From Nereocystis luetkeana (lineage: Eukaryota; Sar; Phaeophyceae; Laminariales; Laminariaceae): a stretch of DNA of 64,000 bases. Of this stretch, positions 1-64,000 are shown one piece after another. A program made the position numbers and the translations under genes. Below the pieces are notes generated by a model that ran no database searches, was not told where the DNA came from, and saw nothing but the letters and a program-made list of their open reading frames with translations. The stretch spans positions 4,623,330 to 4,687,329 of the forward strand of contig JARUPZ010000027.1 in the NCBI GenBank assembly GCA_031213475.1. Direction: 5' to 3'. Each line of letters begins with the position of its first letter. The stretch's first letter is position 1.

Positions 1-800
1 TGTTCACTTCTTGCGTTCGGCGTTCCTGATAGGATCCCGAGCCTCATCACGCTCGTTCATTTCGTCGATATGCCTGGCATGGTCTCGGCCCTGTTCCAGA
101 AAATCTTCAGCCAGTTCCTGTTTTTAGTCGATTTGCGTTCTCTTAGTCTTGTCTCGTCTTGCGTTCGACGTCCCCGATGGTACCCCGAGCTTAACCCCTG
201 TGCGTGGTCACAAACTACGACGGACATGAAACATCGCAATGCATCACACAACGCGATGCCATACCATCGTCCTGGGTGCGACAGGCAGGACATCAATAGG
301 CCATCAGCCTACAGTAAGTTCACAGAGAGATGAATACGAAAGAAACAGAAAAAGGAAAAAATTAAAACGAACAAAAAGAAACGAAAGCGAGGGGATAAGA
401 AAGGAAAGCCTATACCCGGAAGAAAAAAAAAGAGAAAAATACTCCGAGCCATATGCTATCGTTTCTTGTAGACGTGACAAGCTACTTGACTACGAGTTAG
501 TCTGTACATGATGCACTCACGTCTTCCTCTTTTTGTGGTAGTCGGCCTTCGTCTTCGATATCACCTCCTTCAAAGTGCTCCGGGAGAGGGTGTTCGTTTC
601 GTCTGGTGAGCCACCGTACGTCGTCCTCTCGTTCGGTGGGACTTACACGCCAGGTTTTGTTGGCCTCGTCAACCAACCAACGGCTTTTTCCCCTCGCGCT
701 TCCAGAACACAGGAGTACCCTTCGAAGCACCTTTGGCTACGCCCCTGACCTGTTGCATCTCGGCCAGGATTATCAGCAAAATGAGAGCCTTCAGCTTCAG
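1..800. other. Unassigned 5' end of window
   Basis: No gene recognised. Around 230-310 there is weak resemblance to the 3' tail of the LINE family seen at 7.9 kb and 43.85 kb (a short stretch ending in a GACAGGCA-type motif), and 320-440 is A-rich, so a decayed retroelement tail is possible. The minus-strand open stretch 497-730 is charged and acidic at its end, but I recognise no domain in it. Confidence 0.3.
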
Positions 801-897
801 TTAACCCTTTTAGGACCGCAGTCCCGTTTTGGGGACAAACTACTTTGAATTTGACTCGGTTGTTCCCAAAACGGGACAGCGGTCCTAAAAGGGGTAA
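801..897. mobile_element. MITE family A, copy 1
   Basis: Near-palindromic 90-bp element. Left end TTAACCCTTTTAGGACCGCA and right end the matching inverted repeat closing with AAAAGGGGTAA; the arms carry the family core GTCCCGTTTTGGGGACAA. The flanks TTAA/GTAA fit a TTAA target site with one change. Confidence 0.85.
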
Positions 898-899
898 GC

Positions 900-1600
900 G
901 CGTGCCGAGACCACTGCCACCACCCTCCCCCCCCTCATCCTCTCCCTCGTTACCATCGGTCTTCTCCTCGATCAAACTTCCCGTCCCACCCTCACCCACG
1001 GGGGCGGGATGAACGGGCCGGAAAGAAGAAGCGCTCGGCAGATCGAGCGGTGGCGAGGCGGTACTGGACGTCCCGTGGCCGCTGGCGCTGGCACGGATAT
1101 CCAGGGTTGGCCCGGGTTGCTGCCGCCGTCACGACCGGAACTCAACGTTGCAGCTGCTATCGGGTCGGCTGCCTGGGTGGTTGCCATCGACGCCGCCAGT
1201 CGGACTGCTGGTGCTGGTGCTGGTGCTGCTGCGGCCGCGGCTGTCGGTGCGGTAGCTGCCGCTAATTCGGCTGCCATTGGGCCACCGGTTGTCACCACCG
1301 CCGATCGGGCTGCCCCTGCTGATTTGGCGGTTGTAAGTGTTGACCGGACCGCCGGCTGGGCTGCTGTTGCTACTGCAGTGGTGGTAGCCGTTGGAGAGGT
1401 TGCCCGTGGGTAGAAGTTGTCCTCGGCATCGGCCCTGCCCCTCATGCTGGAGCTATGCTCGAGACGTCGTTCGCCGGCGTAGTCGTAACTGTGATCGCGT
1501 CCTGGGCTCGACCCCAAACGACTGAGATGGCGGAAGAAAACCCCTTTCGTCCGTGAACCTGAGGATGGTATCGGGATCCGTTGTGTTGGAGTTGGTGTAG
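900..1600 (-). pseudogene. Possible decayed or spliced coding stretch, Ser/Asn/Gly/Arg-rich
   Basis: On the minus strand this GC-rich segment can be read as a low-complexity protein. From about 1560 down to 1410 one frame reads charged sequence (a run like DHSYDYAGERRLEHSSS, then EDNFYP). From about 1410 to 1130 the neighbouring frame becomes Ser/Asn/Gly/Arg-rich (for example NTYNRQISRGSPIGGGDNRW), and below 1130 it ends in an acidic Gly/Glu tail before running into the MITE at 801-897. A frame change near 1412 and a stop near 1133 mean it is either spliced or broken. The alternative frame over the same DNA is a long Ala/Thr-rich open frame that looks like a shadow. No family recognised; RNA-seq would decide. 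Confidence 0.25.
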
Positions 1601-1659
1601 ATCGTACAACAGCCCGCAAACAAAAATACAGGCCCACCACCCCGTGTCGTTAATGTCAA

Positions 1660-3840
1660 GGTAGACAGCTACCTCTCGGAAACCAGTATGCCCACAAAGC
1701 GTTAGCTACGTGTTACCCCTACCACCCCTACGGCTCGCCAGTATATATTCTACCAAATACGCTGAGGCCTGTGCAAGCGCTACCAGCAAGCGCTATTAAT
1801 ACCAGCATCCGTCTTCTGTATAACGACAACAGGAACTTGCGAGGTGTCCACTGCTGCAGTACTCGTACAGCAGTGCATTACTTGTATCAGAGCACATCAT
1901 ACGAGTACCAGGGGAGCATGATACCGGCAGGTATCAAGCACCCCCCATGATACCAGCAGGTATCAAGCACCCCCCAAGAACAGCAGCGCGCTTTGCGAAG
2001 TTGGCGGCAATGCTTGTAACTGGTACCAGGTACGCATTACACGCAAGTGCATACCAGGTACCTGGCGGTGGGATCTACTGCTGCTGTACTGCTGCTGTAC
2101 GTAAATATATGCCTGTACCAGGTGTAACACGAACCAGCTACGTACTCGAATTATGCGACGAACACGATATCCATTTTTTTTTAAATAGGCTACTACTTGG
2201 AATTAGTTAACATACTTGTTTTAGTGCGAGAACGAGTACTCGTATCGATACGTCGAAAGCTCTCCAAACACCGCGCCAATCTTGTGCACTATTCAAATAC
2301 GGCAGGTATGTACAAAGTCGCCAACCTTGCGTACCCTACCAGTTCATCGTACCAGAGCCCGCCTGAGCAACGGAACATCGGCTTACCACTCGTAAACTTT
2401 CATATTTGCTCCTCGAACTTCGCGCCTTCGCTACGCCAGGTACGCCAAATCATTTCGACGCCATCGGTGAAGGCATGGGTTCATGTCTGAGTTCTCTGTA
2501 CTACAACGACAGTAGGTGTCCAAACTACTCACTACTTGTACAGAGGGCCGCTGCGCGCACAAAACTATGGCTGTTGTAGTAGGTAGAGCTCAGACCAAAC
2601 TCCATGCCTTCAGCGATGACACCGAAATGAAGTGGCTGCCAAGCGGTTCTTCCTCCTCTCCGAGAATCCCACCCGCTTATTTCCGGATAGGGTGAGTGGC
2701 GTACCTTGTTGGGGGTATGGATTTGGGGCGACTCCGATGCTCCGTTGTGGAGTACTGGAGTCTGGAGTCTGGAGTACTGCCCACAGGAACGAAAAAGTTT
2801 GTATAGATACTCGGTGGCTTTTGTTCCAGGGCTTTCTTCATCGCTACTTTATGTCCTCCTCGACGTTTGCACCACCTTTCAGCTGGCCGAGGGTGGAGAG
2901 AGCGGTGTGCCGGAGAAAGACAGGTACCAAACGTACGCTGGTGACTCTTAACTATTTTCTAGCTATATTCTCCTGGCCACGGTACTTGAGGACAACCGCA
3001 ACGGACGCCCACTGTCGGACGAAAGAGGCAGCGTACAAGTAGAGAGAACAAACACGCGTGCTGGACCGTGTGCTCGGGAGTGAATCGCGGTACATGCCCA
3101 AGGCAAAGCCGCTCCAGTCTCATCAGCATGACGGCGGCCACTAGCTATCACGAGGATTCGACGAGTCAGGTGAGTTTATCATCATTCCGCAGTACTGGGG
3201 TATTGTACGGTATCTGGTGCCTGGTATGCTGCATGCTGTGTAGAGGTGATTGCACTGATTCTCTTTGGGAGTAACTTCGGTGCGGTCGAAGGATGACGAA
3301 GGTGTAGCGCTGCTTTTCGTACCGGTGTGTAGGTTATACGGCTGCTGCATGACACCTGGTACCCGGTACTGGTACGTACGTTATACCAGGTATGAGACTA
3401 CGGGAAGGGAAAGAGGCAACAAGTTTCGAGCGCGTAGGGCCGGCTGAACGTGCACGGCAATGCATAGCGTATTGCTCGTTGGAAGGAAGGAGCCTTTGGA
3501 ACACTTGTAGAACACTACCTGGTACTTTAATAGGGTGTTTTTATAAGAAACTAAAAGAGTACGTCAGCTGTGAGTTCAACCGATCGGCAGATCGATCGAT
3601 ACTCAACTTTGCAAGCTGCGTGAACCGATCGCGCTTTTTCCATTATTTCCCTGGCGATTGACTACTGGCCGGTAACTCCCCTGGATGCTACCAGGGTCGA
3701 CGAGACGATAATACTTGTACCATCTCGTACACTGAAACAGCAGATCGACACGCGAAGGTCGAGGTACACAAGATAATCGAAAGTTGGTTGACAACACAGA
3801 CGGGCACACCGACACCATGAAAATTGTTCAATATAGATAG
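1660..3840. other. Gene-free stretch dense in TACC(A/T)GGTA micro-palindromes
   Basis: No coding region supported. It carries TACCAGGTA/TACCTGGTA at 2024, 2052, 3384 and 3516, a TATTAATA at 1794, a short tandem duplication at 1918-1975 (GATACCAGCAGGTATCAAGC-type unit, twice) and many GTAC-rich words. Confidence 0.6.
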
Positions 3841-3865
3841 AACTACATACTTAGATCACAACCCC

Positions 3866-4935: not shown

Positions 4936-6125
4936 CCTGTAAATGTTTCAGCAGATCTTGACGAACCAGTTCACGAGTACGCACGTGTTTGTTGGTGAGT
5001 CTCACTATCGTACATGTTCTTGGCCTCTTCTGCTCTTGATATATGAAACACAAAGTATGCACACACCTGTGAGATTGCAGAGGGTGGTCCAACAGCGCAG
5101 GAGGTGATGTTCGTGATTTCTGTAGGTAGGCTAGCGAGTGGCGCATTCTGATCCTACAGCTCTTTGTTCCGTCTCAAGCGCCCTACCAGGCAATACGATC
5201 ACTAGAGCTGGATCCCAAAGCTCGCCCTGCACACGACGCCAAGAAGATGGAAACAAAAGCTAAAACTGAACATGAGCGCCACTCTCACAACCTCCTGTCG
5301 TATTATTATTTCGACTCTCAACGAAGTCCGGTCCTACTTGTCGAAATGACCCGGATCTTGATTGGGGGAGTTCGTAGATCCTTGCGTGAACGTACCTAGG
5401 TAAATAATGACCAAGGACCCAAGGACGTATGATCAGGATTATTTGGCATGTATGTGTGTCGTCATTTTCATGCTACAACAACAGCAGTACAAAGCTACGG
5501 ATCTTGCTACTCGTACATCATTCATACCTGGTATCAGCGTACGTACAATAGTAGTTGATCATAAAACACCAAATTCATTAAAACAGCCAGGAAGCCCGAT
5601 GCGTGCATCTGCTCAAGCAGGAACGATTATCCCTCGTGGTTCGTTTCCTTCCGGCGCTGGTGTTTTGCGAAAAAAACGATTATGGTTGGGTTGAGAACCA
5701 CAGGCTACTCACCAAACCAAAACATAATCGGGTTTGAAACTGCTTGCGAGAACCCAAAACAATCATTTCGTTTTCGAACTGGAACTAAAATTCTAGGAAC
5801 TTAGATTACAGCAACAAATGACAAATAAAGAAATAAAAGTACGAAATATGGAACACCAACGGCTTCGTACGAGATGCTACTCCCTGCTGCTGCTGCTGCT
5901 GCGTGGCTCGCTGCGTTTGTGTCTGCTCTATGTGCTCTATGGCAGTAATGCAAAGAGTGTCAATCGATGCGACCGGGGCCTGTTGTGCAGTGTGTGCGTA
6001 GGCGTGCTGTGGGTGTGCCTGTGGTGCGGTAACACGCGCCAGAGCCCAGAGTACCGCTACTTTGTTGCCGCAGCAACAACAAGCAGCACAGTAGAGCAAC
6101 AACTTCAGCAGCAGTCCACAACGCA
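4936..6125. other. No recognised gene
   Basis: Between repeat G and the LINE. Contains TACCTGGTA at 5525 and, from 5885, short GCT/CAG trinucleotide tracts that lead into the LINE. The CAG-rich stretch 6060-6125 may belong to the LINE 5' part or be an independent microsatellite. Confidence 0.5.
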
Positions 6126-7629: not shown

Positions 7630-7638
7630 TACCTGGTA
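7630..7638. repeat. TACCTGGTA micro-insert in LINE 3' region
   Basis: In this copy the LINE tail reads GTCTTATATACCTGGTACTC, whereas the paralogous tail (reverse strand near 44113) reads GTCTTGCTCTG. About 11 bp ending TACCTGGTA are extra here, at a TA. Confidence 0.75.
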
Positions 7639-9655: not shown

Positions 9656-9659
9656 AAGT

Positions 9660-10660: not shown

Positions 10661-11981
10661 TTTCTTCTCGCGAAACTTCGCCGGCCCGAGAGGCCACTCT
10701 CGGGGCAACTCTCGGGGCAAGCTTGGCCAATCTAAAACGTCCGGAGACTTTTCGGCGGACAGAATGCAGCGGTCGAATCTCAAATCGCTCATATATATGC
10801 CTCTAGAGTAGTATAATATGCTATCCAAAAATGCATAAGTTGGTCGTATTGCAAATTTGATTATACTTTTAAGGCCGATCGTCGGTAACGGGAGAATAGA
10901 TGAGAAAATTTCGTGATATTTTTTTCTTTTGGGCAGACACCGTATTGAAAGGATTTTAGCATAATGATAGCGTGGCCGCATCGGCGACCGTAGCGTCGGA
11001 GCATCTCGCTTATCTGACCATCGCCGCCACCACCGCCCGGCCTTTCTTGCGCGGCCAATCAGCATCTCCTGCGATAACATGTACCAGGTATACGTTATGA
11101 TACACTCCAGCGGCTTTGACATGTCGCACGTCGCTCTTACGCAATAATACTCGCAGACAGCAGCAATACGTGGAGCTTTTCTGACCGTCATCCCGCGCTT
11201 GTGTGTGTGTGTGTGTGTGTTTTTTTTGTCATCCTGATCGATGCAAAAACTTGGGGAGGGTGGGGGGAGGTCGGAGGTCGGAACCTGCGGGGACCGGGTT
11301 GCCCATTACACGCTCTACCTACCGTATATACCCATACCCGTACCACCTCTCGACTCGAACATTAGGACCCTTTAGACATTAACATGAAGACCAAACGGTC
11401 CTAATATTAAGGCCCAGTGCGGTATATATATATAGTGTCAAGGTGTCCCCTAACATATTTTCTCAAAACGGGGGGAGAGACGCTTCCCAGTGTGTTTCTG
11501 AACAATACTAAGGTAGTAATGACAGAAAGAAAGCCTACATATCTAACCGCGTGTTTTTCGCACTGACGGCTTTTTCGATTCACGCAGTAGTTGTTGACAC
11601 AAAGCGCACCAAAAGGGGGGTGCTTTTGGGCATATTTTTTTGCCTATTTGCTATGGGCCTCCGTGACAGTTGGATGCCGTTTTTTTTTTTTCTGCCCCGG
11701 AGAGCGAGAGACAGTTGGATGTATCGAAAGTTTCGATGTACCGCAGTGGGTACCCCGAGTTTAAAGCATTTTGGAGTTGAAAAAATGATACCCTTTTAGA
11801 GGCAAAAACTGCGGAGCCCCGTTTAGAGGACAAACGACTCAAATTCTAAGTAGTTTGTAAGAACGGTCGAAACGGCTTGCCTCACCTACAAGTAAAAGCT
11901 ACCAGGGATGTATTTCCCACTACAGATGACAGCAGTGCGTGGGTTAAGGGCGCGTGTTTTCCGCCTGTCACGAGGTGCTCT

Positions 11982-12300
11982 TCACTCGGGGGTACCCAAT
12001 GCTGTATCGGTATATCAAACATTTCGATGTATCGTACATATCGAAGGCGTTTTGCCCTCCGTACGTATCGAAGGCGTTTTTCCCTCCGTACGTGTCGAAG
12101 GCGTTTTGCCCTGCATTAGCCCGCAAGCGTATTCCTGTGTTTTTTGTGCGGATATATACCGAACGAAAGGCTCCATGCATCAAATATCGAGATCGTATCG
12201 ATTACGATAAATATTTTTTTCTTTATCGGTATCGTGTCGCACTCGATTCCGATATCGATATCCGATATCCAAAACTATCATACGATATACCTGGTACCTG
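11982..12300. repeat. ATCGATA-rich repeat family K, copy 1, with 27-bp tandem units
   Basis: Three tandem units (CGAAGGCGTTTTKCCCTSCGTACGT-like) at 12039-12115, then a stretch rich in ATCGATA/GATATC words. A related block is at 56440-56850, where TCGAACGCGTTTTGCCCTCC and the same ATCGATA-rich tail recur. Confidence 0.6.
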
Positions 12301-12495
12301 GTGTTGGTTTTATGGTGCTTTTGTCGTGCCGCTCTACCAACGATCGCGGTTGCTCCGCGTTCTGAATGATGCTCCAGGACCCAGGACCCCCAAGGACTAG
12401 ATTAGACGTACGCGAAGGGAAAAACGTGGTCGCAGTTCCGGCTTGGTCGTTTGTTTTCTTGTTTGTACTACGGCAGTTACTGTACCGTCCACCTA

Positions 12496-12600
12496 TTACG
12501 GGGGGCCATAGTTAACAGGACCAAATATTGTTAGTAAAAATGGTTCAACATATAGTTTTTTTTGTATACCATAGGTCCTGTTAACTATGGTCCCCCGTAA
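12496..12600. mobile_element. MITE family B, copy 1
   Basis: 105 bp, flanked by TA on both sides. Ends TTACGGGGGGCCATAGTTAA and the inverted match TTAACTATGGTCCCCCGTAA; the middle is AT-rich. A TA target duplication and TT...AA termini are the family pattern. Confidence 0.9.
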
Positions 12601-13000
12601 TAGTCAGAAACAGGAAAACTGTTCGAGGCTGGAGTTCTTATTTGAGAATGGGTGTGTACTACACTAACTTCAGTATAAATGCATGCCGAATTTTTTGTTT
12701 TGCTGTAAACCTTAAGCCTGCGTTCTGATGTGTCCCGGACTGCAATCTTCCGGTACGAGCGTTTCGACGTCATAGGGCCATCGTGGTAGATTGGCATGTA
12801 CGGCTGTGGCAGTAGAAGTTACGTGGGAGTTTAGAAGATTCTTATGCAGTTCGATTGATCAATCGACTTTTCCCCATTCGTCGGTTCTTTCATCGTCGCC
12901 ACATAGGCACAAATCATAGACAGACGCGCGGCCTCTGATCCCCGCCCTCCCTTCGCCTATCATTTGTGTTGTTGGGTTGTCGGTGACTGCGTGCGATCAG

Positions 13001-16000
13001 ATGAATGGAACGTCGCCTGGCGGGAGCGCCACGGAGACAGAGCTGACGGAGCGGGAGGCTGACGATGGGCGAGAGAAGGCGAAGAGGGGGGGCCTGGATC
13101 AGGAACAGGAGGCGTCGAGCCTTCGAGCGCGCCGCGCGGAGCTAGCAGAGCGCCTGGAAGCCGCCCGGACGGCCCTTGCTTCGGCCCGGGAACGCCGAGA
13201 GTTTATGGAAGAGGAGGCGGAACAGGTGTGTGTGGGGGGGGAAGATGCGCTTGCACTTCGGTGTAGGTTGACTTCCGCGTACGTTGGGTTGTCTGTCGTT
13301 TGCAACATCCATGGTGCGTACTTACCAGCGATACGATACCCGACACCTCGCATCGGGCACGTGCTGTTATACAGACGTTGCTGTTGTGAGAGAAGGTTTG
13401 TTTCCGGGTGACGTTTTTTCGTGAGGAAAAACGGTTGGTGCGTGACAGGTAACTCGTTCGAGAGTACTTCAGCCGTGTCGTCCAGTTTGCCCCCTGCTGG
13501 CAGCATGTCACCCGCGATGTCTTTCGCTGGCATTATCGATAGAGCTTATACCAGGTATGCACGAGCACGTATACACGTAGCTCGTACCGGCACGTATGTG
13601 TGTACGAGAGTGCGACTAGAGGTGATGGGGAGATACTGCTTGCTGAGAGTTTCTCTTTCGGCCTATACGCAGCGGTGTGCCTCTGGGATGATTTTGTTTC
13701 GTTTGTTTTTTTACCCCTGGCGAAGCGTTTGTTGTCACTTGGAAGAGAAAGCTCACGGTCGGAATGCGTGGTGCTGCACACGCGGTACCCGGACTGCCCA
13801 TCGCAGCTCATACCTGGTACCTGGTGTTGAATGGTACATGACACCCTTTCTACCCCTCCTTCAAGAATGCGCCTGTTCCTTAACAGAATGTCACCCTCTC
13901 GGACAGACAGATCATGATCTATCTATATATCTGTAGATGATCTAGTTCCTCACCTACCTGCCGTTGTGAGAGGTTGTGCAGGATCTGTATACAGTACAGA
14001 TCCAACCCAGGAGGCGTGTGCCAGATCGGGCAGATTTCGTCCGTCCCACCCGGCAACATGAGCCAGACCGTACAAGGTCGGGAATGTATGATCTGTCTGT
14101 CTTAGAAATATCTAGCCTAGCTCATGAGGTGGGAATGATCAACCTCTTTCAAGGATGTGCCGACCCTTTGTCGAAGACATTTAACCCCTTTAAAACCGCA
14201 GCCCCGTTTTGGGGACGAACCACTCAAATTCCAGCTGCAGCTTGTCCCCAAAACGGGACCGCCGTCCTACAAGGGTTCAATTAAAGTCCCCGCTCCAGTC
14301 GGTACTGGGCCGGCGTTTCCCCGCAATCTTCACTCTTCATTGTGGGCCTGATGTAGTTGGGCCCAAAATATTTTTCGAAACGATAGTGCTCAATAACCTA
14401 GAAACGTATCGTGCAGATGGTTAACAAACCGCGGCGATGATTAATCATCGATGGCGAACATGCCAAGGTCGTAGTGGAAAAAAAAAGCACGGTTTTGCGG
14501 GGTACCGTCCTTTTGTTCTTGCCTTGCTGCTTCCTCTCGAGCCCCTTCCCCCCCCCCCCCCCCGTCGCCGCCGCCTGCACGCTGCCAAACAAACCCTAGC
14601 GCTTGCTTTCCTCCTTTCCCCCCCCGCCCCCTATTTTATAAAGGTTGGGTTGGCGTCGGTTGGCAACGACACTGTAAAACATGCCTCTCACTACGTGAGC
14701 TAGACAACCAGGGTACCGTTTTTTTTTGTTTTTGTTTTTTTGGCGGTCGCCCACAGCTGGTTGTCGAGTTAGATCATTTGTGCGAGGTAAATAACCTTTA
14801 CTCCGCACAAGTGGGAATGATCGTATCACGTAGTGTTCAAGGTGAGGCACCCACGAGGCAGTTACATAGTACTCCCATGGCTGTCTCTGGAATTGCCTAC
14901 ACCGGAAAATAAATTAACTCATTGAAGCTGCAAGTCCGCCTCACAAGCGGTTCTTAGTAGGATGCAGCTCACCCTCCATGCGACTCGCCGGACACCTCAC
15001 GGCGCTTCGCGCTTGGTGCAAGCAATGTCGGCCTGGTCGGTGAAAACCCGACATGCTCCGTCCCGGCATTGTAGGGATGCGAGGGTCTATGGTCATACAT
15101 ACCACTACGGCCATGCATGAGATCGAGTACACCTCTCCTATCGAGTACACCCCCCCCCACCCCCATCGCCGCCGCCGCCTCCACGCTACTTAACAAACCC
15201 CTGACGCTTTCCTTTATTTTTCTTCCTTGCGCGTATCACCTTGTTTCGTCCTCTCTACCATATATGTAAATATATATAATATGTACTACCTGGTATGGCG
15301 GTAGGCGAGAGAGTACGGGAAGAAGCTTGCCCAGGAGATGTCGCGACTGGCACGCATAGACCAAGCGCTTCCCCCCGACCAAAACGCCGCCCTCGAAAAG
15401 CTTCGACGCCTCGTCGCCGCCCTCACGGAAATGGAGCTGCAAGAGCTAACCACGCTCGAGGAGGAGCGAGCCCAAGAGGCTGCGCTCCGAGCGGAAATTG
15501 CCGATTTCACCGGCGCTTGTAGCAGTACCAATAGTAGTAGTACCCAGCAGGCGGCGGCGCCCACAAGGGAGGGTGAGGAGGAGCAGGACGAGGAGGAGAA
15601 AGAGGAGGCGGGTTTGCAAGCGGGGGCAGGGGATGTCCAGGAGTCTGAGAGTGCTTCGAAGGCGGTCGCCGGGCGGGGGCGAGGACGGGGTGACGGAGCT
15701 GCCGTGCTGGCGGAGACCGCGGATGACCCGCTGGCTGCAGCGCCCAGCAGCCCGGAGGTGGAAGCGGATGAGCGGAGGAAGAAGCTGGGCGAGGTGGTGG
15801 GGGTAGGGTCCGTGGTCGGGGTGGGAGTGGGAGTGGGACGAGGGGGCGCCGGTTTGCCGGGGGTGTTGGTTTTTGCGGGCGCCTCCGCCGCCGGACGGGG
15901 GGGGGGGGTCGGGGGGGGCAGGCGAGGGCGACAACCCCGGACAAAAAGGGAAGGAGAAGAGGAAGACGGCGGCGGAGGGGAAGGCGCTCTTGGCCGAAGG

Positions 16001-21239: not shown

Positions 21240-21834
21240 TAGGCATGACGAGCTCTACGTCTTACCACTCAGGACAGAAATGTAAGGACCGTTCCACGTA
21301 CTAAAATCGACACCTACTGGCGTTCCTAGTGCATCTCCGTTAAGAGAGTGGCACTTTTTTCAATCTCCCCCCGAGGGCTCCAGAAGATGATGAAAATTGA
21401 CCAATACACTTTGACAGTTACAACAACGGCCAAACCGCGTGATAGTTTGAGGGATGATGATACTTCAAATCCGTGGGTCCGAGCTACAACGCGAAATGAG
21501 TCGCGCACGGCACGGAGCGCAAAACGACCCAATGTTATACCTGGTATGCGCTTTTGCTGCTGGGCGCTCACGCACAAAGGTGATCACTGTGTTGGATCAC
21601 ATTATTCGCGTCACCACAAGGTGTTCTATGTGTTTCGTCCAAAATCATTTTTTTTTACAGAAAAAAAAAAACATACATACCATGGTGTACGCGAGCACCC
21701 CGATGACCTATCATTCCATGGGCTAACAAAACAGGAATTCATACGAATCGAACGCAATTAGTTGTAAAACGCAATAACATAAAAAACGACCGTGCAAATA
21801 TGCCAGGTATTGGGTAGGTCCTGAGTTGGGCACA

Positions 21835-23265: not shown

Positions 23266-26200
23266 TTATTGGCCGGGCTCCTCCTCCGGTTTAATCCACA
23301 GCGCGGTGTTCGTACAGGCGCTCGCGATGACCGCGTACTTCGGGCTGCACAGCACCCGTCCCACCGACGACCCGTGCCCCTTGAGTACCTTGGCCAGCTT
23401 GCCGTCCTCTGCGCTCCAGACGTAGATGCCGCGGTCTTCCGACCCGGAGAGGACGTACTGCGCGTTCGGGGTAAAACACGCGTCCAGCTCGGAGTGGTTG
23501 TCGTTCGAATGCCCGGTGAAAACCTTGAAGGAAAAAAAGAAAGAAAGCAAAGGCACGGCACGGCACAGCACAGCACGGCAAGGGGTTAACGAAGAAATGT
23601 GGTTTAGCTATACGGGACGACGCGAGCCTCTCCGTGGGGTCGGCGAAGGCGCGGCGCACGATTGGCCGTCAGGAAGTTTTCATTACCCGCCACATGGATC
23701 CAATGGTTGGAGGGAGCGTCATTGGCCGCTATTAATAGTCATCGATTTTACCCCCCAGGTTGGATGGTATATATGGTCGGGAGCGCCCGGCTGGCGATAC
23801 GTTTGGGTCTTCCACCGTCGAAGTTTAGCATGCGCCGGGGGGGGGGGGGGGGTACTCATGTCATGCATGGCCGCAGTCGTATGGCCACAGGGGGTGGCAG
23901 TACTATTTACGGGGGACCATACACAGTAAATAGGACCTACGTTACACACAAAAACCTACAAATTCTCCTATTTTTACTCACAATACTTGGTCCTATTTAG
24001 TATGGTCCCCCGTACTATTACGGGGGACCATAGTTACTAGGACCTACGGTACACACAAAAACCTATATATTTTCCTATTTTTACTATCAATATTTGGTCC
24101 TGTTTACTATGGCCCCCCGTAGTAGCGGGAAGGGACGCCCACGTTTGGCTCATCCCATACATCCAAGCGGTGTGCGATACTTATGAAAACTAAAGACCGA
24201 GTCAAACCGGTGGATACATGCAGATGTATCAAACGCTTTCGAAGCGGTGCGGTCTTCCAAAAGTGCAAGAAGGTGCTGGATGGGATGGGAGGCGTGTGTG
24301 TGTGTGTGGGGGGGGGGGTACTCGATATCATGCGTGGCCGTAGTCGTATGATTATAGACCTTCGCATCAATACAACGCCGGGACGGAGCACGCCGGGTTT
24401 TCACCGACCAGGAAGGCAGACACCGCTAGCACCGGAAGCGCGAAGCAAGCGCCGTGGGGTATTCAGCGAGTCGTAGGAAGCGTGAGAGGTGCTGCAACCT
24501 GCCAAGCACCGCTTGCGAGGCGGACTTTCTTGCGCATGTCTGACGGTGTCGATTGAATTGGTTGGTTTTCCGGTGTGGCCAACTGCAGAGACAGCGGTGG
24601 GGTTTACTGAGTAACTGCCTCTTGGGGTGCCTTACCATATACCAGGTACACAGTTACCTTGGTACGTGATGCGACCATACCCCTCGTGCGCAGTTAGGGC
24701 TCTCCACCCGGCACGAATTATCGCCAAAAAGGGGGGGGTCTCTGCCGCTACAATACAAACAGTTGTCCAAAAAAACACCCATGAATAGTCTTGCTTGCGC
24801 ATCATCTTCATGTAATCCGGCGTGACCCTGCGCGTACCGCTGTACATGCCGATACGACCATGACCACCGCTGCACCGCGTTTTTCGATTTGGTCGCTTCA
24901 GGGCACACGGCGACCAACACCGCTCAAGCCGCTCAAGCCACCGAGCGATGGGATGACAGCGGGGGGGGCTGAAAAGGTGTGATGGTTGCTGTGAAAAGTG
25001 GATGCCCTCACGGGAACACTGCGTAGACAAGAAAAACAAAAAAGCTTGAGATTCGCCCTCCCCAAGACTCCCTTCGTGGCCGATTCGCTCTTAAACCCTT
25101 ACAGCACATACAGCACATACAGCACATACAATTAATTCGGCGAGAAACTACTTGGAAATAGACTAGGAGCGTTTTTGCGATATTACCTACTGTTCCAAGT
25201 AAACTATACGTAAACTACTGTCGTGAGTAAAAGCGTCAAACATGTAAGTACATGTACTGTTGCTGTGTCACACCGTGTTGCAGCCGAACTACCCCGATTT
25301 TCGCAACAAGAAACGACAACAGCGACAACAAAAAATAAGGAAAAAAAAAACAGAGCCGAGAAACAAATAAACGAACAAACAAACCAACCAACAAACAAAC
25401 AAGCAAACAAACAAACACGAAAAAAAAACAAACAATAAAACAGAAAAACAGAAGAAACAAAAAAACAAAGAAACAAAAAAAACAAAAAAAAACGAAAAGC
25501 AAAAACAAAAAACAAAAAAACAGCAAAGCGACGCACGCACGCACCGCACCGCACCGCACCGCGCCGCACCGTACCTGCTTCACGTCGCCTTCGAAAGCGT
25601 GCAACGTCAGGACCAAGCTCGCGTCCGTCGCGATCAGGATGCTCTGCCCGTCCGCGCTGAACTTCATGCTCTTCCACCGCGCGAGCGACAACGCCTTCGC
25701 CTTCTTCGGTCGCGTGCCCGCCTTTACCATGAACTCCTCCACCTGCACCAACAACAAAAATGCCAAAATGCCCCCACACAAACGAAGCGAAGGTGTTGTA
25801 CGTACAGCGGAGGGTTTCCCGTTGCGCGCCACGAGACGCGCGGGAACAGGGGGTGTACTCGATAGGAGAGATGTGCTCGATCTCATGCATGGCCGTAGTC
25901 GTACGACCATAGACCCTCGCATCCCTACAATGCGGGGAACAGGGGGTGGGGGATACGTGATCGCCGTGAAAAAAGGAAAACAAAAACAGTATACGCGGGC
26001 GATATCAAAATCACACTTGTATACATACGTACTCCCGTTAGGTATACAGCATTCTGTACGAAAGAACGAGGCCGGCTAGTTTTCCCACCGGGTTTTTCGT
26101 AACATACAAAAAAAACTGCCTGACACGTTGGACGTCTTAAGGCGGGGGGAGTATATTAATAGCCAGTCTTATTTCTGACGATTCGCACATGAGGGGAGCT

Positions 26201-29200
26201 CCCAACTGTTTCCGACAATAAAAAATGGACCATTAAATCAAGAGAAAACAATCCCTCGAAACTACACTGTGTACACCTGGTATATCATGCCATGGTATTA
26301 CGGGGGACCATAGTAAATAGGACCTACGGCAACACGCAAAAACCTACCAGGTATATATTCACCTTTTTTTACTAACAAGATTTGGTTCTATTGACTATGG
26401 TCCCCCGTAATAGTTATTTCTCGGATGATAAATGTAAAAAACGAAAAATTGGGATCAACGAACGATTTCGGACAAACCAGGAAGAAAAAAAAAAACAAAA
26501 TGGGGAGCGATATCGGGACAACGAGATCGTGAAAACAAGCCAGCCTGCGGCTTCCTTGCCCACGACGCCGTCAGCAAACTCCGGCCAGAAAAAAACAAAC
26601 AAAAAAACATCGTGTTGCGATGCTCGCTGGAGGACACGCCGCGGAACCGAGGCTGTGGCGGGGGAGGGGGGGACGGGGGGGGGGTGTACTCGACATCATG
26701 CATGGCCGTAGTCGTATCACCATAGACCCTCGTACGTCCGGTTTTTGTCCACCAGGCAGGGGAGGGGGGGGGGTTGGGGGGGGGTGGGGGAGAGAGAGGG
26801 GGATAGCATGGAAGCGCAAAAGGCGCGAAACAGAGAAACAAATCTCTTAGCAAAACCTCCCAGCCGGGGGTCCGCCGCCCAATACTTCAGCAGCGCACCT
26901 TGGTGTGCTCCACGTTGAACGTATCGAACGGCCCCTTCTCGTACTGCCGCGTCCGTCGGTCAGCCGGTCGGTCCGTCGGTCAGTTGGTCGGTCGGTCGGT
27001 CGGTCGGTCGGTTGCGTACACAAAGCCCGAAAACGAGAAAAAAAAAGCGCGCGAAAAAAACACCAGTGACGTGGGCGTTGCGTACCCATTTACATGCACA
27101 TCCGAAAGGGCAGGTAAGAGACGGAACGAAAATGACACGGGGCGCACGGATTGCACACGGGGAAGGAGAGAAGGAGGATATCTCGATTATCAACGAAGAA
27201 AGCGATATGTATGTGAAATGTGTAGGACGGCGACGCGCGCCCGGTTTTGTTTTCCGTTCGCGAAGGCGGAGGGTGTACCTTGCAAGGCCAGCTGTAGCTC
27301 CCAAAGAAACAAAACCCGCGACAAAAACCGTGTGCCAGGTGTGTGCTCGTACCGGGTATGACCTGTTGTACTGCGCGGGGTGCTTCCACCATAACTATCC
27401 GACACTATGTGAAAGTAAAGAACTGGCCCGACGATACATCCGTTTTATTCAGGGATGGGATGAGAAAAGAAATACAACGATCCCCCCCTATCCCCGACCT
27501 CCCTCCCAAAAGGCGTTATGCACGGCAGGCAGCGCCACAGTCGTTCAGTTCTCTGCCCTGCAATGACCTTACAGCCACCACGCAACGGTACGACGAGTGA
27601 GTTGTGACGCAGGCGTTGTTAGGGGCGTGCGGAGCAAGACGCTTGGCAAACGATGTTGCTGTCTTCAAGAGGGAACACAGGCGACACGCGCGGCGCTACC
27701 TGCTTCATAAAAAAAGGCAATACAGTTCAGAAAAACAGGTGAAGCCATCCACCCAGTGCACAAACAACAAGTGATAGTCGTAGAACGAGTAGCCTTCCGA
27801 CGCAAAGACTACCTTCCGATACAAAGGTAATTCGTAGCGAGTAGCCTTCCAGCACGAAAGACTACTCGTAGCGAGTACAGTAGCCTTCCGACACAACAGA
27901 CTACTCGTAGCGAGTACAGTAGCCTTCCGACACAACAGACCACGGGAAACCCCCCCCCCAAAAAACAATCAAATAATCCGCTCTGCCGCCGCAATCGACC
28001 GATTTTCCTGAGGCCATCTTGAACCGACCGATACGACAAACAAAAAACAGAAAACCGATTGAAACTACAGTACTTCACACCTCTAGCAGATACATCACGA
28101 TCTATCTATCTATCTACAGTAAAACATCTAGTTCCTCACCTGCCACTGTGAGAGGTTGTGCAGGACCTGCATGTAGTATAGATCCTACCCCCGCAGGAAA
28201 CATATGCTGCTGCAGATGAAGCAGATCACACAGCTCCCACGTGGCAGGCAACGTGAGCTACAGTAGATCGTACCCCTCCGTCCGTGAATATAGGGACCAT
28301 TTACACACTAATAATCAACAAAAAAAATCCTTATATTCAGGGACAGAGAGGGGCAGATCAGGAATCCATCTATCTGATTTATCTGACCAGAGAGACTTAT
28401 ATCATCCAGAGGGAGTCGACAATGACCTCTGCATTTTCATTCCCCACATCTCCTCCCCCCCCCTTATCTCTCTCCGATCTCACTCACGTTTCGCGCGTCG
28501 TAGAGCTTGATAATGTTGGCCTTTCCGGTGAACGTCGCCGCCGCGAACACCAGCCCCTGCTGGTCATACGCCACGTACGGCGTCCCGTACCCCTTGGGAA
28601 ACTCCAACACGGCCAGGCATTGCGGCCGCGAGAGGTGCCACAACCGTACAGTCCTAAAATGGGACACACCCGGCGGTAACAGAGGGGACACAGAAAACGT
28701 GAAAAAAAAAGACACACACACATAAAAAGAAGCCGGGGTTTCAAAGGGGGGGGGGGGGGGGGGGGTAGTCATGTCATGCATGGCCGCAGTCGTGTTTACC
28801 ACAGACCCTCGCTCTGAAGGAGGTGTGCTTAGTAAGGTACTTTCGAGTATACACTCGGGGATACCCGGGTATCAAACCTGCTATTTGTTTGGTCATACTC
28901 GGGTAGGTACCCGGGTAATCCGCGAGTATTCACACTAAACCTATTTATTTATCTTTTGTCATACTCGGGTAGGTACCCGCGTACCCCGCGAGTATGGACA
29001 CTGAACCTACAGTAGTTATTTTCATAATACTCGGGTAGGTACCCGGGTACGGCGAGTGTACGCACTAAACCTACTGTAGTGTTTTCTGTCATACTCGGGT
29101 ATGTTCCCGGGATCCCCGCGAGTATACACATTAAACCTAGCTTTTTTTGTCATATTCGGGGATAAATAGATACCCGGGTACCTCACGAGAATATACTGAA

Positions 29201-37079: not shown

Positions 37080-40000
37080 GCAAGTGAGAGTGACAAGTAC
37101 CGCTTTACGGTCTGCTAGCGAGGCCTGACGGCCTGACACGACCCTCTCTGAAGTCCTAGCCCGCCCTCAACTACCTGGAAACGCGTACCTGGTACGGTAC
37201 AATACAGCAGCACACAGTCATTGCCGTCGCTTGTCATTTTATTTGGCTCTGGGACTACTACGCTACTTGTTTCGGGCCCTATCTACTTACAATTAGAGTC
37301 GGAAAACTGCTTCCATCTTCCATTAGACCAACTACTGAAAATTAGAGGAAAACTGCACCCACGTTTCGGGGACTCGAAGGGTCGTTATTATTGGAAGGAC
37401 CTTTTGTCCTGCATTTGCAGGGTTTTCACGTTTTTTTCCGAATACGAGTATGTGGATGCGAAGCATTCCTGAGACTATTTTTGCCCTCCGCTTAAAATTC
37501 ACAAATTGTGCCAGAACGCCTTCGTATCTTGATGAAAAATCACGTACCTGGAGAACTGGAGAACATTGTTTTTCGATACGTTTGGATGTAAAAGAGTTGG
37601 CCGACCACCGTGATTTCCTGCTGGAAGGGACCAAGAGCGCAGTCGGGACGAAGCAATGAAGTGTTGTTGTTTAAGACTTTGACGTGATTGGGGTTTGGGA
37701 AATTCCTTCGATTTTGAACTTGTGAATGGAGTCACGGGTTTCCACAGGAGATTTTTTTTCTACACAGAGACAGACCCGCACACACGGAAGTGAAACGGTG
37801 AAACGGGGAACATGAAGTGTAATATAGTAAATGGTTTTCAAACCATTTCAGAAGCGAAGTCACGTGGCATCGAGATAGACCTCGATATGTTTCCAAATGG
37901 TCCGATTGTAGTCCCTAGTCTGTTGCACCAGAACACCAGCCGACAAAAAAATATGTACCTGCTTGCCTCTAGAACCTGCAGGCAGACCTTTCGACCGGTG
38001 CGTTACAAACAACAGTTTTTATATCAGCTTTCCGACGAAAGATTAACTCCCAATCAACACACACCGAAACAGCGATTCGATTTTCGTTTCTGCCTACTCG
38101 TAGCGTCGAAGGACCAAGTCGCCGTAGCACTCCCGTCTCACAAAACGTAAATATGGCGGTGCTCCTAACCCCAACCCTGGTATGCTGTATCACACCAGCC
38201 GACAAGTGCCGGCACCTTCGTGTCACAACGTAAAAGCTGTCAGGTATGGCGATTGGTAATAGAAGCTGCAGGTCTTTCTACCGCGAAAAAATAGTTTTTG
38301 GATAGAAATACAGCACAGTTTTGATTTCACCTTTCTCAGAACATATGATGCCGCAATCACCTCACATCCAAGACAGCGACTCGATTACTTCTGCTTCCAG
38401 GGTCGACGGACCAAGTCAGCGTAGCTCTCCTCTCACACAACACATGAGAATATGGCGGTGCTACACCCCGCGGTCGGTCATAGTCGCCGTTGTACCCTGT
38501 GGGGCAAAAGCCATCCGGACCTTCCGGTCGTTCTCCAGCAGTCTTCTTTCTTGTGCTCAGTGTTTCTCCGTGCGTCCTTAAGCCAAGCACCGGCCTCGAG
38601 CCACACAGCTCTCTCATGTATGATAGTTCGCTGACATGTGGGTGCTCCCTCCCTCCCTCCCTTGCGTCGCACAGACTGCAAGATTAAGATTACGAACGCC
38701 GAACTGGTCCACGTCGACCCGCGTTTTTTGCTACGAACCGGAGACACCAAACTCCTTGTTGGCTTTCAAGCCAAGAACGAGCCTATTCTGAAACCCTGTT
38801 TAACAAGTACCAGGCACAGGGGATCATAGGGAAATAGCCCCCCACTCGAAAACTACCAGGTACCTGGTATATATATCTTGATAAAATATAAAAAAAGAGG
38901 GGGCGGGGAAAAAAAGTCGCCGCTTGACTCTTTCCCTCGCCCAGCTGACCATTCGAGTTGTTTGGGGGGGGTCTCGCGCTCGCCATTTTCCAGCGCGATT
39001 GTTTTTGTTCTCGCAAGAGCGATGAAATCAAGAATGGAACTCCCATCGTTGTTAGAGGCTCTAATTGATTTGTGTTTAAACGAACACCACAGCTCCAACA
39101 TTTTGTTTAGGCCAAAAATTCAAGCGAGTTTTTTCATGTTTTTTTTTCTGTCTACGTGTTGTTCTGTCCGATCGCACATGTACCTATGACCTTTTTTCTC
39201 CATTCGTTCAGTCCAATCTTGAAAAAAAATGTCAGGCGTGTGACCTCTCGCATTTTTTTTTCAAAACCAGAAAACGGTACATCAAGGGGTGTTTTGCGCC
39301 AGTAAGCGGCATAGATGTATACTTAGTATCATACAAGGCGCTCCGCTTCGCGGGCGGCGATCGGGCGGCTATTCGCCGGTTCAAGGAAGCAACATAGAAT
39401 AAAGTTTTAGGCTGGCAGGACGCTCGTGACTTGGTGCAATGAGCGACTTGCAAATGCCAAGAGTTTAGTTGCGCAGGAAAAACCACGCCAAGCGTTTATG
39501 CTCTTTGAATTTGCGCATGAGAATTCCCTTCGATGGAAGGCAGGCCTCGACAAACACGCTGTAAGTACGAACACATGACGCTAGCCCGACTCATTTTCGT
39601 GGAAACTGGCATCGTGCGTTTGGTTCTCTGTCACGGTATGTCCCGTGGGTGCTCTCCGTGTAACAGGCAGTGGCGTTCAAACGGCACGAATAGAGAGTGG
39701 CTTATCCCCCCCTCTGAGCTCCGATCCCCGGACTGGGTAACTCAGCCTCTCGCGTTGACCCGCGAGAAAACTAAAATGGCGCCGGGTAATCACGCGGTCT
39801 GTTGGGGGTAATGTTCTCTGGAAACAGTGCCAAAGCTGCAGTCATCACCGGGGTTTCCGACTTACGCTCTCCGGCCGTGCCACGGAATAAATTAAGTAAC
39901 GTTTTAGTAACGGTTTCGTGGCGTTACGGTTGTGTGCCTCTATCTACTTCACTTTCTGTCCTTTGTCCTTCATTTTCTTGCACCTCTACTTTCTACTCCT

Positions 40001-43681: not shown

Positions 43682-44935
43682 TCACATTATTAAACCGTTC
43701 TTTCTACCCGTCGACATCCAGCACAACCAGTGTCCGTGCCGATTCTTCAATCCTATTAATAGAAGAGATACAAGTTCTGTGGTCACAAAGCTACGCCGCA
43801 GATATACCACGTTGCCACGTATGTATGCAGTAAGCACAGCAGTGGGCAATGCAATGCCATGTCATCATAGTAGGTACGACAGGCACGACATACACATTCT
43901 ATGAAATAGAGAAAGGAAAAGAAACAATCAAGGAGAAAACAAAAAACAAAGAAGACAAATCGAAAGAAAAAAGAAAAAAATGAAAGAAAAAAACTAGAAG
44001 AAACAATCTGTCGTGCCCTCCCCCCGCAGGCGAGGTGGGCAACACTTGAAAAAGAATGAGCTGGAAATAAAAATAAATAAATAACAAAAACACCGCTGCT
44101 TGTAAACAGAGCAAGACGAAGAACCAAAGAAAAAATAACACAGGGAAAAATAACTGGCAGGCCAAAGCCCAAAGCACCCTCCAGGTGTGGCGGCAGCAGT
44201 TTGTGGTACGAGTAATATAGCCAGGTTCTCCCTACTAATCCGCCTGGTACCTTGCTACCCAGACTGCCGTCTCCGCCCTGAGTTCGTCAACTATGCCCAG
44301 CCCCTTGGCGTCAGACAATACGAAACGAGCAGAGCAGGTTCGTCATCCAACCACGCCACACGACTCCTTCAATACGGCTTATCAATCAGAAAAGGAAGAG
44401 AAATAAATGAAATGAGAATCACGGGGAATCAGCGCGAGAAAGAAAAAAACTAAACCAAACTGAACCAAAGGGAAGACAAAAGGGAAGACCACGTTCGAAC
44501 CAGCTGCACCAGTTGGTGGCACTATTAATAGTACTATGGTCATGTTCTACTTCCTAGTCGGCCTGGTGCCTTGCCACCCTGTCTGCCATATACTTCCTAC
44601 TTTCGTCTACCGCAGCTTCCCTTCTACTCCTCCTGTCCCCCCCCCTCTCCGCATTTCCTTGGTCGGGTTTTCTGCCACTTCTCCTGTTGCCCCCCCCCCC
44701 CCCCGTTCCCTTGGTCACCATCCACGGCGGATGCACGGCGCTGCCTACTCATCTCAGCCTCAGCCTCGTGCCACCTCACCATGAACCGTTCGGCTGCTTC
44801 AAGGATCCCCCGGTACCACTTCCCCGCCTTTTTGGCTGCAGTGGACCACAACGCGGCCTCAACTCCGAACACCAAGGGGGCAACTTCCGTTGACCCTTTG
44901 GTGGCTCGGAACTCCCTACCTAAGTAAGGTCTTCG
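43682..44935 (-). mobile_element. LINE, copy 2 (5'-truncated)
   Basis: Contains the last part of the ORF (44930-44554: STEVAPLVFGVEAALWSTAA, KKAGKWYRGILEAAERFMVR, frameshift in a G-run near 44695, then RRSRREAAVDESRKYMADRV to a stop) and the T-rich 3' region that matches 7200-8050. It ends next to family C sequence on both sides. Confidence 0.8.
43754..43761. repeat. TATTAATA micro-insert, clean empty-site evidence
   Basis: LINE copy 2 (minus strand) reads TCTTCTATTAATAGGATTGA where copy 1 (7973-7990) reads TCTTCTAGGATTGA, and the 55.6 kb copy reads TCTCTAGGCATGA. Two of three copies have a bare TA, so TTAATA is an insertion in this one. Confidence 0.92.
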
Positions 44936-45035: not shown

Positions 45036-46550
45036 TTTTTTTCCGGTCCGGTGTTTCTCTTATTATTACCGGTACGTTGGCGTCTCACTATAGGTTTCCT
45101 AATTTTGCGATCATATTTGCTTGGCCCTTTTAGTTTTTTTCTTTTTTTTCTGTCTCACAGCAGTCTGTGACTACGGAGTAGGGAGCAGTATGTCTCCAGT
45201 ATAGGATACGGATAATAAGGGGATCAGGGCGGACACTGGATGTACTACATACAGTATATACTACTGATGAAAAGAGGTAGTGGGGTAGAAAGAACGAAGA
45301 CAACACAGCACAAACCATCACATACATACATGTGAAGCAAGTAGTTTATTATGAGGAACGACAGGACGTGAGTGAGTAGTATTAATATGTAGTGGTCAAC
45401 ACCTCTTTCTCTCTGGGGATGGATGGATATAGTGATATACCAGGTAGTAGACTTGGTGCATGGGTTTCGTTTTGTTTCCGAGGTTTTCTTCTTTCGGGAA
45501 AGTTATGAGTGATTCATGTTGAAGATCTGACATTTTTTTTTTGTTTTTCTCATCTCATTCATTATCTTCGCACATCTTCTTCTCTCTCTCCTTCCAACTC
45601 GTGACTCAGATCCGGGGTCACATAGCAGGCTCTTCTCCCCCCTTCCCACATGCTGCACATTGTCGGATGGCAAGAGAAATAGTAATAGCGAATCTTCCTA
45701 CGTACCAGGTACGGTATAGCCATTTATTTGCTCACTCTGGTTGGCTAAGGGTACTGATGATGCATTATAAGCGGGCCTAACGAAACCTTCAAGTATTAAA
45801 TTTTACGTACGAAACGTATAGCGCACAGCAGTCTATCCAAGCCACACAGCATCCCGGGCGGCCCGAATCACAACCTAAAAAAGTATTTCCAAGCACAGCC
45901 TCCAAGCCGCCGAATCAACCCAGAAGAGTCTTACCAAGCACCACAGCATCCTATCTATGTATTATAGGGGACTGATCACTGTGGCTTAGGGTTCCGAATA
46001 GGGGCTATCAAGGGGTGACCACGCCTCTGAATGTTCCAAGTATGTTACAAATATACGTACGAAGCATCATACAGCAGCAGCAGTAGCACGTGATATTAGC
46101 ACCTATCCGTTGGGCGGATACGATCTGCACCCCAAACCGACTTTCCTTTATTTATCGTTTACGTATGAGATAGAGGAAGTAACGTAGCAACGAGCCTTTT
46201 GGTTAAAAGATCTCCCCTGAAACCCTGATGCTGATTAGTTTATTTCAAATACTGCATGCTGTACTTTCGTGTGGTTTCTCTCGGCACACCTGTCTTACCA
46301 CCGCAGCTCTAATTAGTTCTTACCACTGCAGCTCTGATTATCGACTACATACATGTTGAACACTGCTGAGACACGAGATATGTGCGAGATTGCCGTTGCG
46401 TTTCCAGCTCGTTCAAGCAGTAAGTACAGTACATTGCGCCCCTATTCGAACATCCTTATTTTATTTTTGAAACCCAACCTCACCAACATGTTCTTGTTCT
46501 TGCGTGTTGCGCGATACTCGCGCACTCCACCCTCAACTACGTCTGCTGTG
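45036..46550. other. No recognised gene; one SINE S2 fragment
   Basis: 45540-45650 is a SINE S2 fragment in minus orientation (CATTATCTTCGCACATCTTC, ACTCAGATCCGGGGTCACAT). TACCAGGTA at 45438 and 45703, TATTAATA at 45380. The rest holds nothing recognisable. Confidence 0.6.
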
Positions 46551-46653: not shown

Positions 46654-61560
<14,907 letters not shown>

Positions 61561-63299: not shown

Positions 63300-63470
63300 C
63301 TCGTATTGGAATATGTCAGGAAACATGTCAAGCAAGCACAGGGCAAAAACGTGCTCTGTCAAGCTGTCAACGGTGCAGGGCCGAGTGTTCCACACTAGAA
63401 GCTATTAATAGTAGTTTGGTGTCAGTCAAGGCATGCCAAGGCAAAAGTTGCTGTCAGTCAAGGAGGTAAA
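63300..63470 (+). repeat. Repeat family J, copy 3
   Basis: GTCAGGAAACATGTCAAGCA, CCGAGTGTTCCACACTAGAA, GCTATTAATAGTAGTTTGGT, CAAGGCAAAAGTTGCTGTC. Confidence 0.65.
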
Positions 63471-63546
63471 AACGCTGTTTTTTTGCCTCTTGTTTCGTAA
63501 ACGTTTTTCGGTGCACCCTGTGTGGCGGCCGGGTAAAAATGGTATT

Positions 63547-63649
63547 TTAACCCTTTCCGGACCGCAGCCCCGTTTTGGGGACAAACTGCTTGAAATTTGA
63601 CTGGTTTGTCCCCAAAACGGGGCTGCGGTTTTTTTTTTTAAGGGGTTAA
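63547..63649. mobile_element. MITE family A, copy 17
   Basis: TTAACCCTTTCCGGACCGCA ... GGGGCTGCGG, T-run, AAGGGGTTAA; TTAA on both sides. Confidence 0.9.
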
Positions 63650-63863
63650 GGCTGCACGTGCCTTCGACGAGCATTGTTATATTTTGTAACCCCACGTGTT
63701 CTCCGTTTTGTCTTCGCTTTTTTTTTCGTTTGACTGGTTTTGTCCCCAAAACGGGGCTGCGGTTTTTTTTTTAAGGGGTTAAGGCTGCACGTGCCTTCGA
63801 CGAGCATTGTTATATTTTGTAACCCCCACGTGTTCTCCGTTTTGTCTTCGCTTTTTTTTTTTT
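63599..63863. repeat. 132-bp tandem duplication containing half a MITE
   Basis: 63599-63730 is repeated nearly exactly at 63731-63863 (GACTGGTTTTGTCCCCAAAA through TTTTGTCTTCGC and a T-run). The second copy therefore has only the right arm of the MITE. Confidence 0.85.
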
Positions 63864-63936
63864 TGGCGAGGCGATTTCCGCGCTTGAGGTAGGGACGAGC
63901 TTCTTGCTTCTAGAGACTCGAGAAGTTGCGGTGCAG

Positions 63937-63977
63937 GAGGGGGGGGTGGGTGGGGGGGGGGGGGGGGTGGGGGGGGT
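63937..63977. repeat. G-run cluster at window end
   Basis: Several G-runs up to 13 interrupted by T. Confidence 0.9.
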
Positions 63978-64000
63978 CTCGACTCTGTGAAATAAAAAAA

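Follow-up and report, generated by a model that had tools for sequence, protein, structure and literature searches.

What scattered a single nine-base word across a short stretch of an algal genome? The stretch in question is 64,000 nucleotides (nt) long (Nereocystis luetkeana, a brown alga, contig JARUPZ010000027.1, positions 4,623,330 to 4,687,329; its full length is called the window hereafter) and the word is TACCWGGTA, W being A or T. The answer that we consider probable is that a cut-and-paste transposon specific for TA, similar to the Tc1/mariner group and producing a 5-nt CCWGG overhang, left TACCWGGTA behind as its scar on excision. The window contains 31 exact copies, 13 of TACCAGGTA and 18 of TACCTGGTA, and every coordinate given in the original prediction, which was made from the sequence alone, was confirmed (Table 1). 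Dinucleotide shuffles lead to a chance level of 0.32 copies (standard deviation 0.55, maximum 2; 31 reached in none of 100 shuffles) and an order-2 Markov model to 0.64, corresponding to a 48- to 97-fold over-representation that brackets the roughly 60-fold excess, over about 0.5 expected copies, first proposed. Words with C or G at the centre are found at just two sites (3360 and 27350), about as many as had been counted before; words differing from TACCWGGTA by one base mostly occur 0 to 3 times, the most frequent one, TACCWGGTG, being present 7 times; and 31 of the 176 CCWGG of the window have a TA at either end, any other palindromic pair of flanks being present at most three times. This over-representation is genuine and concerns exactly this word.

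TACCAGGTA is the reverse complement of TACCTGGTA, so that the 13:18 balance of these two forms of the word is expected from random orientation and is no proof that a mismatch was resolved in both directions. The A-or-T centre had been presented as a sign of such a resolution, an argument that has to be abandoned since orientation alone gives both words. What still carries meaning is the shape of the word, an almost palindromic sequence with an odd number of bases and with CC and GG arms. The nesting described previously does occur: the full words at 38854 and 38861 share a TA, and a further CCWGG without outer TA is joined through a shared TA to the words at 2052, 12288 and 13811. The avoidance of exons, also suggested, is not significant, none of the 31 words being located inside four open reading frames (ORFs; 3.5 kb together) in which about 1.7 would be expected.

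Comparison of repeat copies indicates how the word arrives. For each word, CCWGG and one TA were deleted and the joined 100-base flanks were compared with the rest of the window. A sister alignment spanning the site was obtained for 4 of the 31 words, with three clean absences (26345, 50877 and 53431) and an unclean one (7630), and none of these four words is conserved in all sisters; three others (24640, 34087 and 53003) have only one flank that can be used, or a sister interrupted by a microsatellite. The clean cases fall in two unrelated repeat families, the miniature inverted-repeat transposable element (MITE) called MITE B and the family at 53431. Two MITE B copies (26345 and 50877) carry the insert and six lack it, the TA being intact in four of the latter and changed to TG or CA in the two others. 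For the word at 53431, the junction in the sister at 48992 is cleanly without the insert, with a 5-base difference a few bases further on, and the insert is compatibly absent from the sister at 45023, save for a small repeat. Sister copies have one TA where the word has TA-CCWGG-TA, that is, a duplicated TA. TACCWGGTA behaves as a 7-bp insertion, CCWGG plus one TA, into TA. The original prediction proposed aligning repeat families to check precisely this, and within the window the word is absent at a TA in some sisters in the three clean cases.

The reconstructed empty sites share a symmetric target profile. Counting outward from TA, a pyrimidine-purine (YR) step occupies bases +1/+2 on 41 of 62 sides, compared with 164 of 471 control TACC sites (p 7e-7), T is present at +6 on 36 of 62 sides, compared with 107 of 471 (p 2e-9), and A or T at +7 on 48 of 62, compared with 222 of 471. 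The YR and T(+6) preferences are visible on the left and right sides taken separately. In the 26 words without attached CCWGG, 37 of 52 sides have YR and 56% have T at +6, and YRTAYR is present in 13 of these words, compared with 9% of 3011 TA sites. The combined YR and T(+6) profile is absent in TACWGTA, TACSGTA (S being C or G), TACTCGTA (a further TA-bounded word, see below) and other TAN5TA words, although 16 of the 34 TACSGTA sides have YR and 17 of the 48 TACWGTA sides have T at +6. Half-words, i.e., TACCWGG without the second TA, number 40, of which 8 from one repeat family were set aside; in the remaining 32, T is present at +6 on the intact side in 18 (3 of them owing to an attached full word), as expected of decayed scars. 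A symmetric YR-TA-YR with T six bases out is what a TA-specific, dimeric transposase would leave, and this symmetric preference is evidence new relative to the original prediction.

Taken with its outer T at +6, the word also forms one long palindrome, as might be found in a protein-binding motif of regulatory or chromatin function that is dispersed or under selection. The target profile is in register with the word and hence cannot, alone, decide against such a motif; the presence/absence cases do, all four words with a spanning sister alignment being missing in some sisters, three of them as an exact TA insert. Moreover, shared 10-base flanks are limited to two pairs among the 31 words, and TATTAATA, another TA-bounded word, is likewise present in some copies and absent in others. 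A binding motif is in our opinion very improbable.

This second word, TATTAATA, is present 18 times in the window (1794 to 63403), often as CTATTAATAG, compared with 0.5 expected. Alignments across the site are available for 4 of the 18: apart from the site at 43754, a clean presence/absence case, and the one at 53564, a nested form (CTATTATTAATAATAG), they concern two copies of a single sequence (7223 and 44523) in which TATTAATA is present while more distant copies lack it. Most copies of MITE B consist of TA followed by TTACGGGGG ... CCCCCGTAA and TA, with terminal inverted repeats, and keeping both 2-nt tips gives TA-TT-AA-TA, which is TATTAATA. G is present at flank position +1 in 8 of the 11 MITE B termini that match the tip pattern and on 64% of the 36 TATTAATA sides; 8 copies of MITE B are found for 18 TATTAATA words. 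Judging from these letters, TATTAATA is best read as a MITE B scar with both 2-nt tips retained. An autonomous partner of MITE B was not found within the window, and MITE A was rejected as the donor of TATTAATA, the copies examined having no TA flanks.

A third word, TACGAGTA/TACTCGTA, is present 19 times compared with 1.15 expected, 2 of the 19 being inside one tandem array. Alignments across the site exist for seven words and are clean only at 36642; both copies contain TACTCGTA at 7528/44207, the sisters of 36708/36714 also have CTCG with one unit fewer, and the alignments at 9290 and 38095 are ambiguous, making TACTCGTA a weaker scar case than TATTAATA. Its letters are those of the Minos scar, TACGAGTA/TACTCGTA; the Minos footprint is not CCWGG, and a Minos-like element was not identified in the window. 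Two more words, TACTGCTGTA and TACWGTA, were rejected as additional scars for a weak excess or for not sharing the target profile; TACWGTA exhibits a 2.4-fold excess (23 sites with distinct flanks compared with 9.7) and no YR preference. At least two TA-targeting families, perhaps three, thus seem to have left scars in the window, one of them with a resident candidate donor; this is the best support for reading TACCWGGTA likewise as a scar. Together, the presence/absence in two families, the symmetric target and the sister scar words sustain the earlier proposal that a TA-targeting transposon left TACCWGGTA when it was excised.

From the observed excess, CCWGG+TA insertion at TA, symmetric target and sister scar words, we infer a stagger, a pairing step, a transposase family and a donor, combined as follows. 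The element would insert into a TA, favouring one within YR-TA-YR that has a T at +6 on either side, and would duplicate this TA. During excision, the transposase would cut one strand at the exact tip of the element and the second strand 5 nt further in, which would leave each broken flank with a 5-nt 3' overhang, CCWGG. The two overhangs could then pair, CC with GG, at four of five positions around one central mismatch, and sealing would produce TA-CCWGG-TA. Pairing of a 5-nt overhang gives a unique product, and this would account for how uniform the words are. The 5-nt stagger is inferred by the same logic as the 3-base stagger of Sleeping Beauty and mariner, whose strands are cut three bases apart, the 3-nt overhangs becoming the footprint (PMC7827188; PMC3878927).

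Among the closest known counterparts are Sleeping Beauty and Frog Prince, which leave C(A/T)GTA through 3-nt overhangs; their TAC(A/T)GTA scars resemble TACCWGGTA in the TA target, the duplicated TA, the odd self-pairing insert and the A/T centre (PMC3878927; PMC7827188). They differ in having three element bases and a known donor, compared with five bases and a donor not found in the window. Mos1, the mauritiana mariner, also targets TA and has a 5' terminal repeat beginning with CCAGG but makes 3-base overhangs (PMC3419177); its scar would be TACCATA or TATGGTA, words present 8 times in the window, 4 of them within one tandem array. The Stowaway/Osmar5 elements of grasses similarly leave TA and short pieces of terminal repeat after excision (PMC1925063; PMC4561436), these pieces being 1-4 bp fragments from either or both ends that could total at least 5 (PMC1925063); the grass footprints vary at one site (PMC1925063), whereas the words of the window are uniform. 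In the brown alga Ectocarpus, a marine algal genome as well, about 12,000 Mariner-Tc1 copies, mainly MITEs, are reported (PMC12477816); 'excision' never occurs in the main text of that paper (PMC12477816). A full-text literature search found no paper joining CCAGG/CCTGG with a target site duplication and a footprint.

These comparisons bring in a different chemistry, in which overhangs of 2 or 3 nt (CC or CCW) would remain at each end and pieces of both ends would survive the joining. The best reading of TATTAATA, with both 2-nt MITE B tips kept, speaks for it, as do the terminal CCAGG and 3-base overhangs of Mos1 (PMC3419177) and the fragments of both ends possible in Stowaway footprints (PMC1925063). 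Against it, the 2+2 product TACCGGTA is present only 3 times in the window and the 3+3 product TACCATGGTA only once, and an extra rule is needed for the odd base that always separates CC from GG. We regard this chemistry as unlikely; a paired 5-nt overhang is the best fit.

Another possibility is that CCWGG plus TA is a micro-element, placed directly into TA by some enzyme and never part of anything larger, an option already raised in the original prediction. The uniformity of the insert and the failure to find a parent element in the window agree with it, and the presence/absence cases and the target preference are equally compatible with insertion. However, the binding sites of a transposase do not fit in five bases (textbook knowledge), the CC-W-GG quasi-palindrome with its duplicated TA is the expected outcome of overhang pairing, and TATTAATA, in the same window, equals the tips of a real element, MITE B. 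The micro-element explains less than an excision scar and seems to us improbable.

Several observations weigh against the excision scar itself. The suggested search for transposons with CCWGG termini after TA found none within the window: a CCWGG-tipped element was absent among 609 TACCWGG/CCWGGTA pairs with matching inner sequence, relaxed TACC tips led only to other families, the 12 candidates among all inverted repeats bounded by TA (about 50-900 bp) belonged to other families, and no match to a Tc1/mariner transposase was detected among the 120 of 275 window ORFs scanned; an autonomous copy would be expected outside the window. Thirty-one scars without any element found in the window make a lopsided ratio. 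The presence/absence evidence is also small in number. The prediction that removing CCWGG plus TA restores the sister sequence stands for MITE B (6 of 8 copies without the insert, both carriers at one TA) and does not for the tail of a long interspersed nuclear element (LINE) at 7630, where the sister is shorter by 11 bases, not 7, and the case is not clean. The MITE B inserts at 26345 and 50877 occupy the same TA in the same orientation, in copies that are 86% identical and have a common GCGTG variant; tree support for these copies as sisters is low, and they are not clearly sisters. The two insertions may be one inherited event, which leaves two to three clean independent cases. A separate scan for indels of 4-14 bases between repeat copies, blind to the word and with a low-complexity filter, produced 28 indels, including other TA-bounded inserts, and no CCWGG insert except the unclean 7630. 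The three clean sites were missing because the filter had dropped them; with the filter off, they are present among 71 indels, with variable placement of the gap by BLAST. The half-words, moreover, have no YR preference (11 of 32).

The published biochemistry adds to these difficulties. In the papers cited, with no 5-nt overhang found among them, described Tc1/mariner overhangs are 2 or 3 nt (PMC3878927), Tc1/mariner footprints 2-4 bp (PMC7913693) and the footprint of a pogo element 0-4 bp (PMC9976928), so that the 5-bp insert lies outside the range of the Tc1/mariner type. DNA-transposon excisions in rice are heterogeneous, 8 of 94 being perfect, with deletions and fillers (PMC4423477), unlike the uniform words of the window.

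A stronger form of the excision-scar reading holds that the family, through its 5-nt-stagger transposase, left nearly every site, so that scars (about 1 per 2 kb) far outnumber copies and nest in each other, and that excision was possibly programmed. Nesting would follow because a scar would itself contain a TA that has T at +6, making it a preferred site for the next insertion. By analogy with the internal eliminated sequences of ciliates, the excision could be developmentally programmed, full elements being kept in another cell lineage or life stage. We consider this stronger form quite unlikely.

The scars that TA-targeting transposons leave on excision are mostly short and would be difficult to detect by word counts; here one putative scar word is prominent in 64 kb, beside at least one more, probably two. 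If the excision-scar reading were true genome-wide, such words would constitute a fossil record of transposon departures, even for vanished elements, that could be dated, mapped relative to genes and compared between strains, and the stagger of the transposase would be longer than the published 2-3 nt. A 7-bp insert shifts reading frames, so that scars would steadily supply small insertions.

Table 1. TACCWGGTA words of the window, selected sites of the two other putative scar words, and MITE B copies (strand. as recorded)
Feature	Position	Strand	Remark
Word TACCAGGTA	2024..2032	.	exact match
Word TACCAGGTA	2052..2060	.	further CCTGG through shared TA at 2059
Word TACCAGGTA	3384..3392	.	exact match
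Word TACCTGGTA	3516..3524	.	exact match
Word TACCTGGTA	5525..5533	.	exact match
Word TACCTGGTA, LINE tail	7630..7638	.	sister 44212-44009 (-) without 11 nt; not a clean 7-nt difference
Word TACCAGGTA	11082..11090	.	exact match
Word TACCTGGTA	12288..12296	.	further CCTGG through shared TA at 12295
Word TACCAGGTA	13549..13557	.	exact match
Word TACCTGGTA	13811..13819	.	further CCTGG, shared TA at 13818; 10-nt right flank equals that of 12288
Word TACCTGGTA	15287..15295	.	exact match
Word TACCTGGTA	21538..21546	.	exact match
Word TACCAGGTA	24640..24648	.	only left flank matches 14921-14841 (-); uninformative
Word, MITE B copy	26345..26353	.	CCAGG+TA absent in 6 of 8 MITE B copies
Word TACCTGGTA	30760..30768	.	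exact match
Word TACCAGGTA	33708..33716	.	exact match
Word TACCAGGTA	34087..34095	.	repeat match stops short of word
Word TACCTGGTA	37186..37194	.	exact match
Word	38854..38862	.	right TA common to 38861 word
Word	38861..38869	.	left TA common to 38854 word
Word TACCAGGTA	45438..45446	.	exact match
Word TACCAGGTA	45703..45711	.	exact match
Word TACCTGGTA	47341..47349	.	close to MITE A copy
Word TACCTGGTA	47875..47883	.	followed by CCGGTA
Word, second MITE B copy	50877..50885	.	TA and orientation as at 26345
Word	51364..51372	.	directly past MITE B copy
Word	53003..53011	.	both flanks match 49539-49279 (-); sister has (TACA)n array between; uninformative
Word	53431..53439	.	cleanly absent in sister 48992-49118 (+), compatibly absent in 45023-44937 (-)
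Word TACCTGGTA	54407..54415	.	exact match
Word TACCTGGTA	55516..55524	.	exact match
Word TACCTGGTA	55551..55559	.	exact match
Second putative scar word TATTAATA	43754..43761	.	CTATTAATAG here; CTAG in sister 8061-7904 (-), 92% identical over 158 bases
Nested putative TATTAATA scar (CTATTATTAATAATAG)	53564..53580	.	two inserts; 12 nt longer than sisters near 49130 and 53250
Third putative scar word TACTCGTA	36642..36649	.	CTCG+TA absent in sisters 20283 (-) and 48155 (+)
MITE B copy TA-TTACGGGGG...CCCCCGTAA-TA	12494..12603	+	candidate donor type for TATTAATA scar
MITE B copy	58144..58253	+	TA flanks intact

Other repeats of the window deserve a short description. The best CCWGG pair, 49122/53256, was rejected as element tips, being located within a longer conserved repeat; the region 49122-53256 and its relatives near 42600, 43600, 45000, 53500 and 54350 are composed of alternating inverted units ATTTTGGCC...CCAGGTATACCTG and contain 8 of the 40 TACCWGG half-words. 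A possible TA-bounded element of 822 bp is present at 49958-50779, with tips matching at 15 of 18 positions (TGCCAATGG...), and overlaps a 258-aa ORF. Inverted arms of about 1 kb (3865-4845 and 8640-9658), 72-89% complementary by segment, enclose about 4 kb that include a LINE tail ORF.

Outside the window, MITE A matches two contigs of planctomycete metagenome-assembled genomes (MAGs), L010 at 3583-3614 (up to 94%, 32 bases) and L011 at 4401-4496 (87%, 92 bases), neither of which contains a full TACCWGGTA word, and a relative of the LINE tail, 76% identical, is present in a Parasphingorhabdus MAG. The MITE A matches are probably algal contamination and, together with the LINE-tail match, suggest that a marine alga contaminated these assemblies. 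In the viral contigs searched, neither the LINE tail nor either MITE pattern has a match; TACCWGGTACCWGGTA is found there at 9 loci with 2-3 words each (one, L002, inspected), which we took for chance.

As for coding content, one of the 120 scanned ORFs matches the Pfam MULE family (E 2e-6) and one has a weak ParE-like match (E 5e-5), likely due to chance, while the ORF at 46651-47409 resembles a MULE transposase by eye, with no Pfam match at E 0.001. In agreement with a eukaryotic host, the window also encodes a CCDC93 coiled coil at 15807-16397 and an RNase MRP RNA at 34957-35282.

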